The position numbers were made by a program, and so were the translations under genes. The notes beneath the pieces are model-generated. The model was not told the origin of the DNA, made no database searches, and saw nothing but the letters and a program-made list of their open reading frames with translations. From Deltaproteobacteria bacterium (GTDB lineage: Bacteria > JAUYMQ01), in the NCBI GenBank assembly GCA_030698575.1, contig JAUYMQ010000186.1, positions 1-5,148 of the forward strand: a stretch of DNA of 5,148 bases, read 5' to 3'. Below, one piece after another: positions 1-5,148 of the stretch (positions are counted from its first letter, which is position 1; each line of letters starts with the position of its first letter).

Positions 1-267
1 GGCCTCAACCGTCGGTGTTCCCTCAACCACCTTCGCCAGGCTCGTCAGCACCTGTGGATAGATGTCGCGGCTATAGTTGTCCGCGTCCTCTCGCCGATCC
101 CACAGACTGATCGCAACCGCTTCGGAGCGGTCCGCGGCAACGAACGAAATCTCGTCCTTGAAACCGTTCTGCTTCCGCAGCAGGGGCAGGACGTCCCTCT
201 CGAGCGTCTGGGTAAACTCACCGGCCGTGTTGGCCTTCAGATGCATGGACACATTGCGTGCGTACAT
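1..267 (-). CDS. ABM-like small dimeric alpha/beta-barrel protein, C-terminus cut by window edge
   Basis: Seen: reading leftwards from ATG 267-265 the frame stays open to base 1 (89 codons, no stop reached). The peptide begins MYARNVSMHLKANTAGEFTQ and continues with VLPLLRKQNGFKDEISFV and AISLWDRREDADNYS. The Shine-Dalgarno AAGGAG sits 6 bases before the ATG. Family: this beta-strand, helix with an 'LLRKQ-GF' segment, then 'ISLWD' layout is typical of ~95-105 aa proteins of the antibiotic-biosynthesis-monooxygenase (ABM) superfamily, so only about ten residues should be missing. Most such small proteins have no known substrate, so a monooxygenase role is not shown. Context: it is the next gene downstream of the groESL remnant on the same strand, 76 bp after the old groEL stop, with no clear terminator between. 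It may now be read from the former groESL promoter. Confidence 0.8.
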   Translation of the reverse strand, partial: MYARNVSMHLKANTAGEFTQTLERDVLPLLRKQNGFKDEISFVAADRSEAVAISLWDRREDADNYSRDIYPQVLTSLAKVVEGTPTVEA

Positions 268-343: not shown

Positions 344-413
344 TCAGTACATCCCGCCCATGCCACGCCCCCGAGCGGGCCTCTGTATTGAATTCGAGGT
401 ACTTGGCAGCCAT
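344..413 (-). pseudogene. groEL: groEL remnant: 5' end fused out of frame to 3' end
   Basis: Seen: on the minus strand, ATG 413-411 opens MAAKYLEFNTEARS, the near-invariant start of GroEL (MAAK-x-L-x-F-x-x-EAR). It is preceded by GGAAGGAG 3 bases upstream and by a groES end 15 bases further. After codon 14 (base 372) the match stops. In another frame the DNA then reads RGMGGMY and a TGA at 346-344, the Gly-Met-rich tail typical of GroEL C-termini. About 520 of the usual ~545 codons are therefore missing, and the junction, near 369-376, is out of frame. The open frame from the ATG would give only a peptide of under 30 residues. GroEL is the 60-kDa ATP-driven chaperonin; this copy cannot make one. 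It is either true erosion of a second groESL copy or, less likely, an assembly deletion. Confidence 0.85.
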
Positions 414-428
414 CTACTCCTTCCTCGC

Positions 429-491
429 TCAGCTGAGCTTCGCGATGACGTCGGATTCCTTGATCAGGATGATCTCTTCCTCCCCGTGCCA
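429..491 (-). pseudogene. groES: groES remnant: C-terminal ~18-20 codons only
   Basis: Seen: the minus strand reads GEEEIILIKESDVIAKLS then TGA at 431-429, the classic C-terminal strand of the GroES co-chaperonin (GEE-x-x-IL-x-ESD-[IV]-A). Upstream of the GEEE the frame continues as SAVSQWH, which does not look like GroES, so the break is near 486-508. About 75-80 of the usual ~96 codons, including the start and mobile loop, are gone. The TGA is 15 bases from the groEL-remnant ATG, the ordinary groES-groEL arrangement, so this was a real operon. Its upstream control element at 509-571 is still intact, which makes a deletion between the leader and the 3' part of groES the simplest reading. Confidence 0.82.
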
Positions 492-508
492 TTGGCTGAC
501 AGCGGATC

Positions 509-520
509 CTAGTTAACTAG
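509..520. promoter_or_regulatory. Perfect 12-bp palindrome CTAGTTAACTAG, downstream box of operator copy 1
   Basis: CTAGTTAACTAG is its own reverse complement. It lies 31 bp downstream (in the groESL direction) of the long block at 551-571. The same TAGTTAACTAG lies at the same distance from the second copy of that block in front of hsp20 (1618-1628). It would lie in the leader of the former groES. This is an inferred operator half of the chaperone control element. Confidence 0.65.
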
Positions 521-541
521 TGGAAGTTTCAGATCTGTGAG

Positions 542-568
542 TGTATATTCATGTACTTAACTTGTCAA
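542..568 (-). promoter_or_regulatory. Candidate sigma70-type promoter of the former groESL operon
   Basis: On the minus strand a consensus TTGACA (568-563) is followed after 15 bases by TATACA (547-542). The -35 element lies inside the palindromic block 551-571, so a protein bound there would compete with RNA polymerase. The spacer is slightly short (15 versus 16-18). The second copy before hsp20 keeps TTGACA but has no clear -10 at this distance, so the promoter call is weaker than the operator call. Confidence 0.4.
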
Positions 569-571
569 GTA
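551..571 (-). promoter_or_regulatory. Operator block, copy 1 (21 bp identical to 1566-1586)
   Basis: Read on the minus strand it contains TACTTGACAAGTTAAGTAC plus AT and is identical over 21 bp to bases 1566-1586. Inside is the near-perfect palindrome ACTTG-A-CAAGT and the shared half-site CAAGTTAA (TTAACTTG on the other strand). It sits between the divergent groESL remnant and the XRE regulator gene, 82 bases before the regulator's start, so it could serve both. It does not resemble CIRCE (TTAGCACTC-N9-GAGTGCTAA) or HAIR (CTTGAGT-N7-ACTCAAG). Confidence 0.7.
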
Positions 572-640
572 CACCAATCGATTTACCCAGTCTTTGTCCC
601 AATGGTTCACCTATTACGGTTAATGACCCAAGTCGGCCCG

Positions 641-652: not shown

Positions 653-1510
653 GTGGATGTCCCATTTGTGATCCGGCACCGGCTGGAGGAATTGGGGTTG
701 GAGCAGCAGGATCTCGCCCGCGCCGCCCGCGTGACCGACTCCTACATCTCGCAATTACTCACTCGGAAGAAGGCGCCCCCCGCACCGAGCCGCACCGCCA
801 TCTATGCCCGAATCGACAAGTTCTTGAAGCTTCCGAGCGGGGAGCTGGCGAAGCTGGCGGAGTTACAGCGCAAGGAAGAATTGAAGCGGGAATTGGGGGA
901 GGCACCCGTGCCCCTGTATCACGAGTTTCGTGCGTTGATCCTGCGCAAGTGCAATCGTGAGACGGAAAAACACGTCCGCGCGATCTTTGAACAGCAGCCC
1001 TTCGGCGAGCTCGAACGCCTAGTCACCCAGAAGCTGCTGGATGTGGTCAAGCGCGTGGCGAAAGACGAACTCGACAATGACTACTGGCTCCGCATGGTGG
1101 CCCAAGTCAGCGGCCGCAGCTATGAGGAGATGCGGGTCATCGTGCTCGAGTTCCTCGACACGGACATCTTCCACGTGTCCGCTGAGAACTGCGTCTCGTT
1201 CTTAGATCCGCTGATCGAATCCTGGGACATCGACCTCGCGACGTTTGGTCTGGAGATTGTCTTAAACCACAGCGTCGTCCCAGGGCAGGCGAAGCGATTC
1301 GAGTTTGTCGAGCGGGAAGCCGAACCGCCCGTCAGCGAAGAACCGGGGCTCCAGGAATTCCTGCAGGATCCTTCCCTCAGCGGCACCGCAACCGCCGAGG
1401 AAGTTGAGTTTCTCAAGGGGCTGACGTTCAACCACAAGCGACCGACGCCCCTCTATTACTACCGGGAGTTACAGAACTTCAGAGACCCGCTCCATTTTCG
1501 CACCCCGTGA
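653..1510 (+). CDS. XRE-type helix-turn-helix regulator, likely controlling the neighbouring chaperone genes
   Basis: Seen: 285 residues from GTG 653 (start fixed by AGGAGG 6 bases upstream). Residues ~5-60 form a Cro/C1-type helix-turn-helix: RHRLEELGLEQQDLARAARV, then DSYISQLLTRKKAPPAPS as recognition helix and wing. The remaining ~220 residues are mostly helical and carry RLVTQKLLDVVKRVAK (~122-137), ENCVSFLDPLIESWDIDLAT (~178-197) and a conserved-looking tail RPTPLYYYRELQNFRDPLHF (~263-282). I do not recognise a named effector domain there. There is no signal peptide or membrane segment, so it is a cytoplasmic DNA-binding protein. Context: flanked on both sides by copies of the same palindromic element, with hsp20 starting 132 bases after its stop and the groESL remnant diverging upstream. 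Inference: it binds these elements, controls hsp20 and formerly groESL, and probably its own gene. Whether it represses or activates cannot be told. Confidence 0.88.
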   Translation: MDVPFVIRHRLEELGLEQQDLARAARVTDSYISQLLTRKKAPPAPSRTAIYARIDKFLKLPSGELAKLAELQRKEELKRELGEAPVPLYHEFRALILRKCNRETEKHVRAIFEQQPFGELERLVTQKLLDVVKRVAKDELDNDYWLRMVAQVSGRSYEEMRVIVLEFLDTDIFHVSAENCVSFLDPLIESWDIDLATFGLEIVLNHSVVPGQAKRFEFVEREAEPPVSEEPGLQEFLQDPSLSGTATAEEVEFLKGLTFNHKRPTPLYYYRELQNFRDPLHFRTP

Positions 1511-1544: not shown

Positions 1545-1565
1545 AATACCCGTTGCAGCCGATAT

Positions 1566-1586
1566 TACTTGACAAGTTAAGTACAT
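1566..1586 (+). promoter_or_regulatory. Operator block, copy 2, upstream of hsp20
   Basis: TACTTGACAAGTTAAGTAC plus AT, identical over 21 bp to the reverse strand of 551-571. It contains a consensus TTGACA at 1569-1574 that may be the hsp20 -35 element, though no good -10 is seen 16-18 bases later. It points toward hsp20 just as copy 1 points toward groESL. Confidence 0.7.
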
Positions 1587-1642: not shown

Positions 1643-2119
1643 ATGTTTGTTACCCAGAGGGACCCGATGCTGGACTTGCTGCATCAGCTGGAGCACCGGA
1701 TGGGCCGGAGCTTCAACGGCGAGCTGTTACGCGCGTCCGAGTGGCCGGTACCCGAGGCCGCGACGACCGCCTGGCTGCCGCTGGTGGACATCTTCGAGGA
1801 GCCCGATGTCATCCGCCTGGTGGCGGAGGTACCCGGGGTGAAGCCCGAGGACGTGAAGATTTCGGTAGAGGGCAACCTGCTGACGATCGCGGGCACGAAG
1901 GAGCAGGTGGCGGAGGAGAAGGCCGAGAAGGTCCATCGCTATGAGCGGACCTACGGCGCCTTCGAGCGGACGTTCAGGCTGTCGGCCTCGATCGATCCCA
2001 ACAAGATCAAGGCGACTTACGACCTCGGGGTGCTGACGATCGCGCTGCCGAAGGCGGAGACGGCCAAGCCCCGTCTGATCGAGGTGGCAGTGACGCCACA
2101 GAAGGCGTTGAACGCCTGA
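1643..2119 (+). CDS. Hsp20 / alpha-crystallin family small heat-shock protein
   Basis: Seen: 158 residues. A short N-terminal arm (DPMLDLLHQLEHRMGRSF) leads into an alpha-crystallin domain (~45-140) with PLVDIFEEPDVIRLVAEVPG, VKPEDVKISVEGNLLTIAG, RYERTYGAFERTFRL and the A-x-x-x-G-V-L-like TYDLGVLTIALPK. A short tail carries the IEV (146-148) I-x-I motif that joins dimers into oligomers. Length and domain order are normal for bacterial class A Hsp20. Role in the family: ATP-independent holdase that binds unfolding cytoplasmic proteins and passes them to DnaK or GroEL systems. Context: monocistronic, 132 bp after the XRE regulator, and preceded by the bipartite operator shared with the former groESL operon. 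That points to stress-induced expression under the same regulator. The start is secure (AAAGGAG 7 bases upstream). Confidence 0.96.
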   Translation: MFVTQRDPMLDLLHQLEHRMGRSFNGELLRASEWPVPEAATTAWLPLVDIFEEPDVIRLVAEVPGVKPEDVKISVEGNLLTIAGTKEQVAEEKAEKVHRYERTYGAFERTFRLSASIDPNKIKATYDLGVLTIALPKAETAKPRLIEVAVTPQKALNA

Positions 2120-2664: not shown

Positions 2665-3842
2665 GACATGAATCCTTTAGCCGCCTGCGTGACCGGTAGG
2701 GTGACGGTGAACGTCGCCCCCTGGCCGGCAGTGCTCGTGGCGGCGATCGTGCCGCCGTGCCGCTCGACAATCTTGCGGCAAATGGCGAGGCCAATGCCGG
2801 AGCCTTCGTACTCCGCGCGGCCGTGGAGGCGCACGAACATCCGGAAGATCTTGCCCGCGTGCTTCTCGCTGAACCCGATCCCGTTGTCCGTCACCGTGAT
2901 GGTACAGTCCGCGCCGCCGGGGGGGGGGCTCGAGCAGCTGAGCCGGACCACGGGCGGCATGTCCTTCTGGCGGTATTTGAGCGCGTTGCCGAGCAGATTC
3001 TGCAGCAGCTGGCGCATCTGAAGCGCGTCGGCGTCGATCACGGGCAGCTCGCCCACCTCCACGCGGCCGCCGGACTCCGCGATGGACGTCTCGAGGTCGG
3101 CGATGACCTCCCGGGCCACCCGGGCGAGGTCGGTGCGGACGAACGGCTGGACGCGCGTGGTCACCTGCGAATACAGGAGCAGGTCGCTGATCAGGGTGCG
3201 CATGCGAGCGGCCGCGCTGAGCATGCGGGCGAGGTGCTCCCGCGCATTGCCTTCGAGCGCCGGCCCCGCGGACGTGTTCAGCAGGTCGCCGAACGACAGG
3301 ATCTTGCGCACCGGCTCCTGCAAGTCATGGGACGCGACGGACGCGAACTCATCCAGCGCCGCGTTGGAGCGCTCGAGCTCCCGGTGCTGCTCCGCCAGGC
3401 GCCATTCCGTGAGGCGGCGAGCCGTGATGTCCTCGATCGCCAGCAGGATGATCCGCGGGAGGTTGGGTCCTTGCGACACGAGCCGGGCGTTGAGCAGCAT
3501 GATCTTGCGGCCGATGCCGGGAAACTCGTGGTCGACGTCGAAATCATTCAATTGCGGCTCGACCGCGAGCTTGTCGCGCAGCAGCTCGCGGAGGGGTGCA
3601 ATGTCCCATTGGCCGTCGCCGAGCGTGAAGAGGACCTCGCCGATCGTGTCCTGGGGCTCTACGCGAAAGGTGCGAAAGAAAGCCCGATTCGCCTGCGTGA
3701 CCCGGAATGCGGCGTCCAGGACGATGAGGGGCTCCCGGACGGTGTCGATGATATCGAGCAGCAGCCGCTGGGCGGCGGGCACATCGCGCGCCGCCTCGTC
3801 GGGGGGGGGGAGGGTCATGGGCAACGACTCGGTGGCAGGCAC
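2661..3842 (-). CDS. Cytoplasmic PAS sensor histidine kinase
   Basis: Seen: 393 residues from GTG 3842, chosen because GAGGAGA lies 7 bases upstream; the in-frame ATG at codon 9 lacks such a site. A PAS domain (~27-140; EPLIVLDAAFRVTQANRAF ... LLAIEDITARR) is followed by a linking helix and HisKA with phospho-acceptor His172 in ASVASHDLQEPVRKI. The HATPase domain follows: N box LLQNLLGNALKYR (~279-291), G1 DNGIGF (319-324), F box around FRMF (333-336) and G2 EGSGIGLAI (346-354). There is no membrane segment, so it senses a cytoplasmic or small diffusible signal; no cofactor-binding residue is obvious in the PAS. Context: coupled to the receiver gene by ATGA and divergent from a LuxR-type regulator. 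Odd: two C10 tracts in the coding strand, at codons 11-14 and 304-308, each encoding three prolines. Confidence 0.95.
   Translation of the reverse strand: MPATESLPMTLPPPDEAARDVPAAQRLLLDIIDTVREPLIVLDAAFRVTQANRAFFRTFRVEPQDTIGEVLFTLGDGQWDIAPLRELLRDKLAVEPQLNDFDVDHEFPGIGRKIMLLNARLVSQGPNLPRIILLAIEDITARRLTEWRLAEQHRELERSNAALDEFASVASHDLQEPVRKILSFGDLLNTSAGPALEGNAREHLARMLSAAARMRTLISDLLLYSQVTTRVQPFVRTDLARVAREVIADLETSIAESGGRVEVGELPVIDADALQMRQLLQNLLGNALKYRQKDMPPVVRLSCSSPPPGGADCTITVTDNGIGFSEKHAGKIFRMFVRLHGRAEYEGSGIGLAICRKIVERHGGTIAATSTAGQGATFTVTLPVTQAAKGFMS
2919..2928. repeat. G10 homopolymer tract inside the kinase gene (ATPase domain)
   Basis: Ten G on the plus strand, i.e. C10 in the kinase coding strand. 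It encodes the S-P-P-P-G stretch between an HATPase beta strand (VVRLSCS) and the next (DCTITVTDNG). Loss or gain of one base would frameshift the kinase before its DNGIGF motif and abolish ATP binding. Confidence 0.85.
3801..3810. repeat. G10 homopolymer tract at the 5' end of the kinase gene
   Basis: Ten G on the plus strand, C10 in the coding strand. It begins at codon 11 and encodes L-P-P-P-D before the PAS domain. A one-base change here would end kinase synthesis near the N-terminus. Confidence 0.85.
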
Positions 3843-3849
3843 AGCAGTT

Positions 3850-3856
3850 TCTCCTC
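3850..3856 (-). promoter_or_regulatory. Shine-Dalgarno GAGGAGA deciding the GTG start of the kinase
   Basis: GAGGAGA on the minus strand stands 7 bases before GTG 3842. The alternative ATG at 3818 has GTTGCCC immediately before it and no purine-rich site. Confidence 0.8.
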
Positions 3857-3878
3857 GCGCGATGAGCCTTCAGATGGA

Positions 3879-3891
3879 GGGTACCGTACCC
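3879..3891. promoter_or_regulatory. Perfect 6-1-6 palindrome between the divergent signalling genes
   Basis: GGGTACCGTACCC is a perfect inverted repeat about a central C. It sits 37 bases before the kinase GTG and 58 before the LuxR-type regulator ATG. Its position suits an operator controlling both genes, perhaps bound by the LuxR-type regulator. A short GCAC-N4-GTGC repeat (3909-3920) follows on the regulator side. No convincing -35/-10 pair was found in the 106-bp spacer. Confidence 0.5.
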
Positions 3892-3948
3892 AGGGGGCAC
3901 GCGCTATCGCACAATCGTGCTAGAGGATTCCTGCTACCTTTGGTCGCC

Positions 3949-4596
3949 ATGCCTCCGAAAGACACGATCAGGGTTGCCATCATCGACGACAATCGCCTGG
4001 TGCGCGAAGCGCTCACGGCGATGCTCAATAGACTCACGGACATCCACGTCGTCTCCTCGGACGTCGCCGACTCGGCATCGCTCGCCGAGACGAAGCCGGA
4101 CGTGCTGCTGCTCGACGTGGGGCTGCGGGACCAGGACAGCCTGCGCGTGGCCGCCACGCTCAGGCAGGAGAACCCGGACGCGAAGATCATCGTGATGGAT
4201 CTCCTCCCGGTGAACGAGGAAATCATGGAGTATGTGAACGCGGGGGTGTGCGGGTTCGTCCTCAAGGATGCCACCTTCGAGGAGTTCATCGCGACGATCC
4301 GGTCGGTCGCTACGGGCACGAAGGTCTTGCCGCCCCGCATGACGGAATCGCTCTTTTCCCAGATCGCGAAGGAGGTGGACGGCCAAGAGCCCGCGCACGT
4401 CCTCGAAGACGTGCGCATGACGCCGCGCGAGCGTGAGGTGATCGACCTGATTGGCGAGGGGCTGAGCAACAAGGAGATCGCCCAGCGTCTCAACATCGCG
4501 ACCCATACCGTCAAGAGTCACGTGCGGAACGTCATGGAGAAGCTGGCGTTGCACACGCGGCTGCAGATCGCCGCGTATTCCCACCGCGAGGGGTAG
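3949..4596 (+). CDS. NarL/FixJ-type response regulator with an unusual switch residue
   Basis: Seen: 215 residues from ATG 3949. Receiver domain: acidic pair D13-D14 (VAIIDDNRLVRE), phospho-acceptor D56 in VLLLDVGL and conserved lysine K106 in GFVLKD. The position normally holding Ser/Thr at the end of beta-4 is D84 (IIVMDLLP). A linker (~125-155) leads to a LuxR-type helix-turn-helix, MTPREREVIDLIGEGLSNKE to NVMEKLALHTRLQIA (157-208). Role: transcription factor switched by phosphorylation. Context: divergent from the PAS kinase across a 106-bp spacer with a palindrome, so the kinase is the likely partner. The start is uncertain because no good Shine-Dalgarno is close to ATG 3949. The frame stays open far upstream, but the receiver fold begins at residue 7 here; an in-frame ATG at 3874 would add 25 residues with no receiver similarity. 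Confidence 0.93.
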   Translation: MPPKDTIRVAIIDDNRLVREALTAMLNRLTDIHVVSSDVADSASLAETKPDVLLLDVGLRDQDSLRVAATLRQENPDAKIIVMDLLPVNEEIMEYVNAGVCGFVLKDATFEEFIATIRSVATGTKVLPPRMTESLFSQIAKEVDGQEPAHVLEDVRMTPREREVIDLIGEGLSNKEIAQRLNIATHTVKSHVRNVMEKLALHTRLQIAAYSHREG

Positions 4597-4714: not shown

Positions 4715-5148
4715 ATGTTCGCATGCAATCGTCCTATCATGCAGCTCGCAGTCTTGATCGCCTTGGGGTCGCTGTCGGCGGCCTGCAGCGACTCCCCGTC
4801 CGGCGTGACCGGGCCCTCGTTCGAGGGCGTATCGGTCGAGGCGTCGAATTTCGCAGTGCTCGCCAACGCAGGCGTCACCTGCACCGACGGCACCATCATC
4901 GGCGACGTGGGCACGTTCAGCGCCACTGGCGCGATCACCCGCACCACTTGCCCCATCACGGGGACGTTGCACGTGGGGGACGGCGTCGCCACACAGGCCT
5001 ACAATGACTTCCTCAACACCTACGCCGTGCTCGCCCCCCAGGCGGGGGACGTCTGCACGACGTTGACGGGCACCCTCGCCGGCGTGATTCTGGCGCCCGG
5101 TGTCTACTGCTTCGATGCGGCGGCGACGTTGACGGGCGTGTTGACGCT
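4715..5148 (+). CDS. DUF3494 (ice-binding-like) lipoprotein, 3' end cut by window edge
   Basis: Seen: open from ATG 4715 to the window end (144 codons, no stop). GGAG lies 9 bases before the ATG. Residues 1-23 are a signal peptide (hydrophobic LAVLIALGSLSAA) ending in a lipobox with Cys24, so the mature protein should be lipid-anchored. The rest matches the start of the DUF3494 beta-solenoid: SNFAVLANAGVTC, IIGDVGTFSATGAIT, VGDGVATQAYNDF, LTGTLAGVILAPGVYCFDAA and TLTGVLTL. Family: members include ice-binding proteins of cold-living microbes, but many are adhesin-like surface proteins with no tested ice activity. Odd: four cysteines (56, 79, 114, 132) that could form two disulfides. The usual length of ~220-250 residues implies about 80-100 residues lie beyond the window. 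A 14-bp DNA repeat (5058-5071, 5124-5137) encodes successive TLTG turns. Confidence 0.87.
   Translation, partial: MFACNRPIMQLAVLIALGSLSAACSDSPSGVTGPSFEGVSVEASNFAVLANAGVTCTDGTIIGDVGTFSATGAITRTTCPITGTLHVGDGVATQAYNDFLNTYAVLAPQAGDVCTTLTGTLAGVILAPGVYCFDAAATLTGVLT
5058..5137 (+). repeat. Direct 14-bp repeat encoding TLTG solenoid turns
   Basis: CGACGTTGACGGGC occurs at 5058-5071 and 5124-5137, 66 bp (22 codons) apart and in the same frame. It encodes T/A-T-L-T-G, the motif that recurs in the beta-solenoid coils of DUF3494 proteins. It fits internal protein repetition rather than a DNA site. Confidence 0.6.

Follow-up and report, generated by a model that had tools for sequence, protein, structure and literature searches.

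A probable relic of a second groES-groEL operon with an intact control region in a Gemmatimonadota contig

Introduction

Near the left end of contig JAUYMQ010000186.1, short pieces resembling the chaperonin genes groES and groEL lie between a regulator gene and a gene related to the ABM family. This locus raises the question of whether the pieces are remains of a decayed operon and, if so, which groES-groEL (groESL) copy was lost and what the surviving control region now serves. The stretch analyzed, hereafter the window, is one whole contig of 5,148 bases from a metagenome-assembled genome (MAG). We conclude that a Gemmatimonadota bacterium very probably had a second groES-groEL operon here and that the pieces are its non-functional relic, gutted by deletions and with its control parts intact.

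Results

Using the neighbouring regulator as query, we obtained 80 loci; loci of relatives are labelled L, genomes G and contigs C. Intact groES-groEL, divergent from the same regulator, was present in L008, L011, L014 and L024, as far as the contigs extend. When the window was compared with these loci, positions 372-482 matched the groES-groEL junction of L014 with 93.7% identity over 111 nucleotides (nt; blastn, E = 3.7e-44), and DNA identity to L008 and L024 was about 90%. The GroEL tail and ABM region matched L166 (contig C335 of the sister genome G076) with 96.6% identity over 177 nt (blastn, E = 1.6e-80), and positions 1-376 were 95% identical to this locus. Thus, the relic is not a chance resemblance. 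Sister strains had been suggested as the place to look for an intact groESL at this locus, and in L166 a groEL frame of 396 codons stood open at the same junction as far as the contig reaches, with the same tail followed by the same ABM-like gene. Contig C166 of G059 likewise carried groEL and then ABM. These arrangements, with the matching tail in G076, indicate that groEL once stood at the window site.

The relic is encoded on the minus strand. The last 17 codons of groES (EEEIILIKESDVIAKLS; 432-482) are followed by a stop codon (431-429); over 482-429, the residues were the same as the end of L008 GroES and 50 of 52 nt were identical to L008 and L014 (blastn), and tblastn gave 88% over 17 amino acids. 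A normal gap of 15 nt, which carries the ribosome site AGGAAGGAG, separates this stop from the groEL ATG (413-411). Codons 1-14 of groEL (MAAKYLEFNTEARS; 372-413) are letter for letter the L014 GroEL start (40/42 nt). Next stands GGGGCGTGG (363-371), representing codons 18-20, which has the exact letters of L024 and L014 groEL once CGCCTCAAGC is removed. The 3' end of this piece is the joint of a 1,555-nt deletion, beyond which the groEL tail, GMGGMY-stop (about 344-364), is the same as that of L166 and lies in a different frame from the N-terminal piece. The original prediction, made from the window alone, had named the GroES C-terminus, the normal spacing, the GroEL N-terminus, the GMGGMY tail and the broken frame, and all of these were found and matched to relatives. 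It had counted 14 N-terminal codons of GroEL; codons 1-14 are indeed present, but with GGGGCGTGG about 20 remain.

In total, 17 of 102 codons of groES and about 20 plus 6 of the 544 codons of groEL are left. Only 70 of 1,635 nt of groEL persist, and the loss of 1,565 nt, a number not divisible by three, breaks the frame. The order groES then groEL, together with the sequence match to both genes, identifies the relic as a pseudogene of a group I chaperonin operon. Coding capacity for Cpn10 and Cpn60 is absent, so it does not qualify as a functional operon of this group, and a chaperonin product from it is impossible. The contig was not among the matches of profile searches with PF00118 and PF00166, and an Rfam search found nothing.

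Compared with L024, the window reads GCCCGCTCG, lacks CGCCTCAAGC, continues with GGGGCGTGG, jumps 1,555 nt and resumes with CATGGGCGGGATGTACTGA. Two deletions, of 10 nt and 1,555 nt, fit the groEL letters exactly; alternatively, a single deletion accompanied by two substitutions and the loss of one base would explain them. Codons 1-85 of groES are absent, and CACGGGGAG before the joint resembles the ribosome site GCACACGGGGAG of L008 groES; this cut probably runs from the ribosome-site region to GAGGAAGAG. The alignments therefore suggest that there were probably three deletions in all, one taking groES codons 1-85 and two in groEL (10 nt and 1,555 nt). Both of the two large internal deletions originally proposed were seen, with the 10-nt loss in addition.

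We next consider which copy was lost. Among the groESLs read in this family of genomes, most had the controlling inverted repeat of chaperone expression (CIRCE) upstream (G061:C117, G066, G064, G070, G076:C298, G077, G081, G083, G067, G087 and G121:C209). CIRCE was not present upstream of groES in the window or in the regulator-linked groESLs, which sit behind a different operator instead. Because the linked copies lack CIRCE and other copies in the family have it, the relic represents the lost second, CIRCE-less copy. Further, the genomes of several relatives hold a linked groESL plus a separate CIRCE-controlled one, in agreement with the proposal that a specialised paralogue was lost and that the regulator, hsp20 and the control element persisted. 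In a GroEL tree, the linked copies of G061, G076, G060, G065 and G059 (two sequences) clustered together (93/81 support), and the CIRCE-bearing copy of G070 was adjacent to this cluster. The linked copies of G062 and G121 fell elsewhere; therefore, the linkage arose more than once, or exchange came after. In L250 (G076:C298, 3384-4880), the CIRCE-type groEL stops at about codon 499 without a Gly-Met tail, and the DNA after it is unlike G077, reflecting either misassembly or truncation.

No groESL relic was found beside 26 other regulator loci. The groEL of L178 (G121:C282) is split by a run of N and was for this reason not taken as further decay; this linked groEL (8771-10458) lies behind a partial groES duplicate (8297-8362). 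We also rejected the joining of G059 contigs C166 and C25 into a single hsp20-groES-groEL-ABM operon, their overlap being just 95% identical.

The contig was Gemmatimonadota throughout: its kinase and response regulator were 87% identical to G129, its regulator 87% to G059 and its hsp20 93% to G077. In contrast, RpoB of the bin was 56-57% identical to that of the Gemmatimonadota G076, G129 and G060 and 64-67% to that of MAGs labelled Rokubacteria, NC10 and Nitrospirae, and the bin GroEL (C472) was at most 72% identical to the family among the best matches listed (89 genomes). The 8.4-kb flank of the sister was missing from the bin except for uvrA-like pieces (67-74%) and short matches. By these comparisons the contig (G000:C254) is probably mis-binned, which is likelier than transfer of the whole 5-kb stretch. 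We accordingly rejected the intact groESL on C472 as the organism's second copy: GroEL, RpoB and the missing flank place the bin in another lineage, and C472 thus says nothing about the organism of the contig. Judging from the relatives, a housekeeping groESL would stand elsewhere in that organism's genome.

The regulator gene is intact (653-1510, plus strand), and homologues 64-84% identical over their length occur in many MAGs. Pfam matches to HTH_31/HTH_3 were weak (E 1.5e-5), just under the cut-off. Foldseek matched the first ~80 residues best to HigA, ClgR, SinR and 434 Cro (the model having a predicted template modelling score of only 0.43), and beyond these residues no convincing match was found for the C-terminal part, Foldseek included. 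Profile and model together suggest a helix-turn-helix (HTH) N-terminus of the XRE kind. In L251 (G060:C280, 6880-7183), the regulator occurs only in pieces (residues 141-242) beside an intact-looking linked groESL, the reverse of the situation in the window. The regulator copies on G064:C149 and G060:C229 also have gaps or splits.

Between the regulator and the groES relic lies a putative operator, TGTACTTGACAAGTTAAGTACA, with seven-base arms (552-573, minus strand). Of the 78 loci whose sequence extends far enough upstream, 63 have a similar site (score of at least 16 of 22) in the 300 nt preceding the regulator, nearly always at a distance of 60-110 nt; among 356 control segments, only 1 has such a site. 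A second copy, sharing TACTTGACAAGTTAAGTACAT with the first, stands upstream of hsp20 (1564-1585, plus strand). A promoter, TTGACA-17-TACACT (540-568, minus strand), overlaps the operator, which contains its -35 box TTGACA, and reads into the relic and the ABM gene. It was the only sigma-70-like site found in positions 1-2200, and the arrangement was the same in L169. The regulator likely represses the divergent operon through the predicted TGTACTTGACAAGTNNAGTACA operator.

The next gene of the operon, the ABM-like gene (1-267, minus strand), is cut by the contig end; its ATG (267-265) is preceded at five bases by AAGGAG. This gene also lies 3' of groEL in L166 (96%) and L255 (86%). PF03992 (ABM) matched 21 of the 41 alignment members (best 7.3e-6), and the window and L166 proteins alone did not match. 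On the other side of the regulator, hsp20 is intact (1643-2119, plus strand) and encodes a small heat-shock protein (PF00011, E = 2e-24), with 86-93% DNA identity to relatives. In L168 (G060:C16), an insert of ~1 kb separates the operator from hsp20 and contains an open frame of ~290 codons (3178-4059). Positions 4715-5146 of the window hold the start of an ice-binding-like (PF11999) lipoprotein gene cut by the contig end.

Across the 80 loci, the ABM-like gene was divergent from the regulator within 2.6 kb in 52, most often as the first gene; groES or groEL occurred on that side in 16 and hsp20 in 9. Most of the ABM-like proteins of these loci were 50-70% identical to that of L166. The MAGs are labelled Gemmatimonadota, Acidobacteriota, Rokubacteria, NC10, Nitrospirae and Proteobacteria. 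In L080, from the Acidobacteriaceae strain KBS 96, the regulator stands beside groESL. Some bin labels are doubtful since L014, titled Rokubacteria, has a Gemmatimonadota-type groESL, which looks like a binning error similar to that of the window. After its deletions, the window unit has the commonest arrangement, regulator-operator-ABM.

Discussion

We propose the following course of events. The operon would have been transcribed divergently from the XRE-type regulator, from the promoter whose -35 box lies in the presumed operator, with the ABM-like gene at its end. In groES the start and codons 1-85 appear to have been deleted, and groEL then probably lost stretches of 10 and 1,555 nt; the deletions would have brought short similar sequences together. 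The promoter, operator and regulator are undamaged, and so are hsp20, which has an operator copy of its own, and the ABM gene, which has its own ribosome site; the unit therefore most likely serves ABM and hsp20 only. Transcription presumably still runs through the relic, and the ABM gene could be made from the same promoter.

The same letters would result if an assembler had passed over an intact groESL, as could happen when strain variants are joined. The window is a metagenome contig, apparently in the wrong bin, and groEL regions break contigs in relatives (G076:C335 and G059:C25). However, two to three joints fall within 140 nt, and the two sides of each share only ~4-9 nt, below the usual assembly word size, which makes a join by the assembler improbable. 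Further, the flanks on both sides of the joints are collinear with relatives. We therefore regard an assembly artefact as unlikely. That the shortened leader, or a small frame from ATG 492, has a function of its own is highly improbable. No stop codon interrupts this frame before the contig end, and it is in phase with ABM, but the counterpart in G076 is also open through an intact groEL end into ABM, so the openness is an effect of base composition. The peptide would be read in a frame other than those of GroES and GroEL, the leader RNA forms no more stable a fold than shuffled sequences do (z = 0.2), and ABM has its own ribosome site. Finally, the bin shows no groESL of this organism, C472 being of a different lineage, as would be seen if the lost operon had been the sole groESL and the organism lived without a chaperonin; given the separate CIRCE-controlled copies of relatives, we consider this scarcely credible.

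Several points weigh against the relic of a second operon as we have described it. The joints are read from one assembled contig, and the organism's own housekeeping groESL was not seen, the contig being probably mis-binned. In the sister G076, the copy with CIRCE stops prematurely. Binding of the regulator to TGTACTTGACAAGTNNAGTACA is a prediction from the position and conservation of the site.

The chances seem to us about even that the regulator, the operator and the ABM-like gene together constitute a stress-control module, so far undescribed, of soil and groundwater bacteria in several phyla, which has repeatedly captured, and sometimes lost, hsp20 or groESL, the window being one loss in progress. 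No description of a regulator-operator-ABM-chaperone module was found in the open-access literature. If it exists, it would be a route of chaperonin control separate from CIRCE/HrcA, HspR and sigma-32. Taken alone, the relic clearly exemplifies how deletions can destroy an accessory chaperonin operon and spare its control region. More broadly, the parts that survive pointed the way to a conserved arrangement, carrying groESL or hsp20 in many uncultured soil lineages, that is directly testable.

In the HrcA/CIRCE system, as in the window, a repressor-type inverted repeat lies over the promoter of chaperone genes, but the TGTACTTGACAAGTNNAGTACA operator bears no relation to CIRCE, and the regulator here belongs to the XRE-type HTH proteins and has an unmatched C-terminal part. 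Duplicate groEL or groESL genes are common, occurring in 884 of 4,861 bacterial genomes, including that of Myxococcus xanthus (PMC5406781). The relic resembles them as a second copy under separate control, next to a presumed housekeeping copy; here, however, the copy is gutted, and its operator stands beside an XRE-type regulator rather than being CIRCE/HrcA. Chaperonin genes had been said to be rarely seen in mid-decay, but a precedent exists in Candidatus Phytoplasma pruni, in which groEL pseudogenes are short relics syntenic with intact copies in sister taxa (PMC13245659). The window shares both the shortness of the groEL relics and the synteny with intact sister copies. In contrast to Phytoplasma pruni, in which the whole GroE system was lost from a reduced genome, an accessory paralogue was affected here, in a soil lineage without such reduction. 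Thus, the relic is a new case of an already known kind, a decaying groEL copy.
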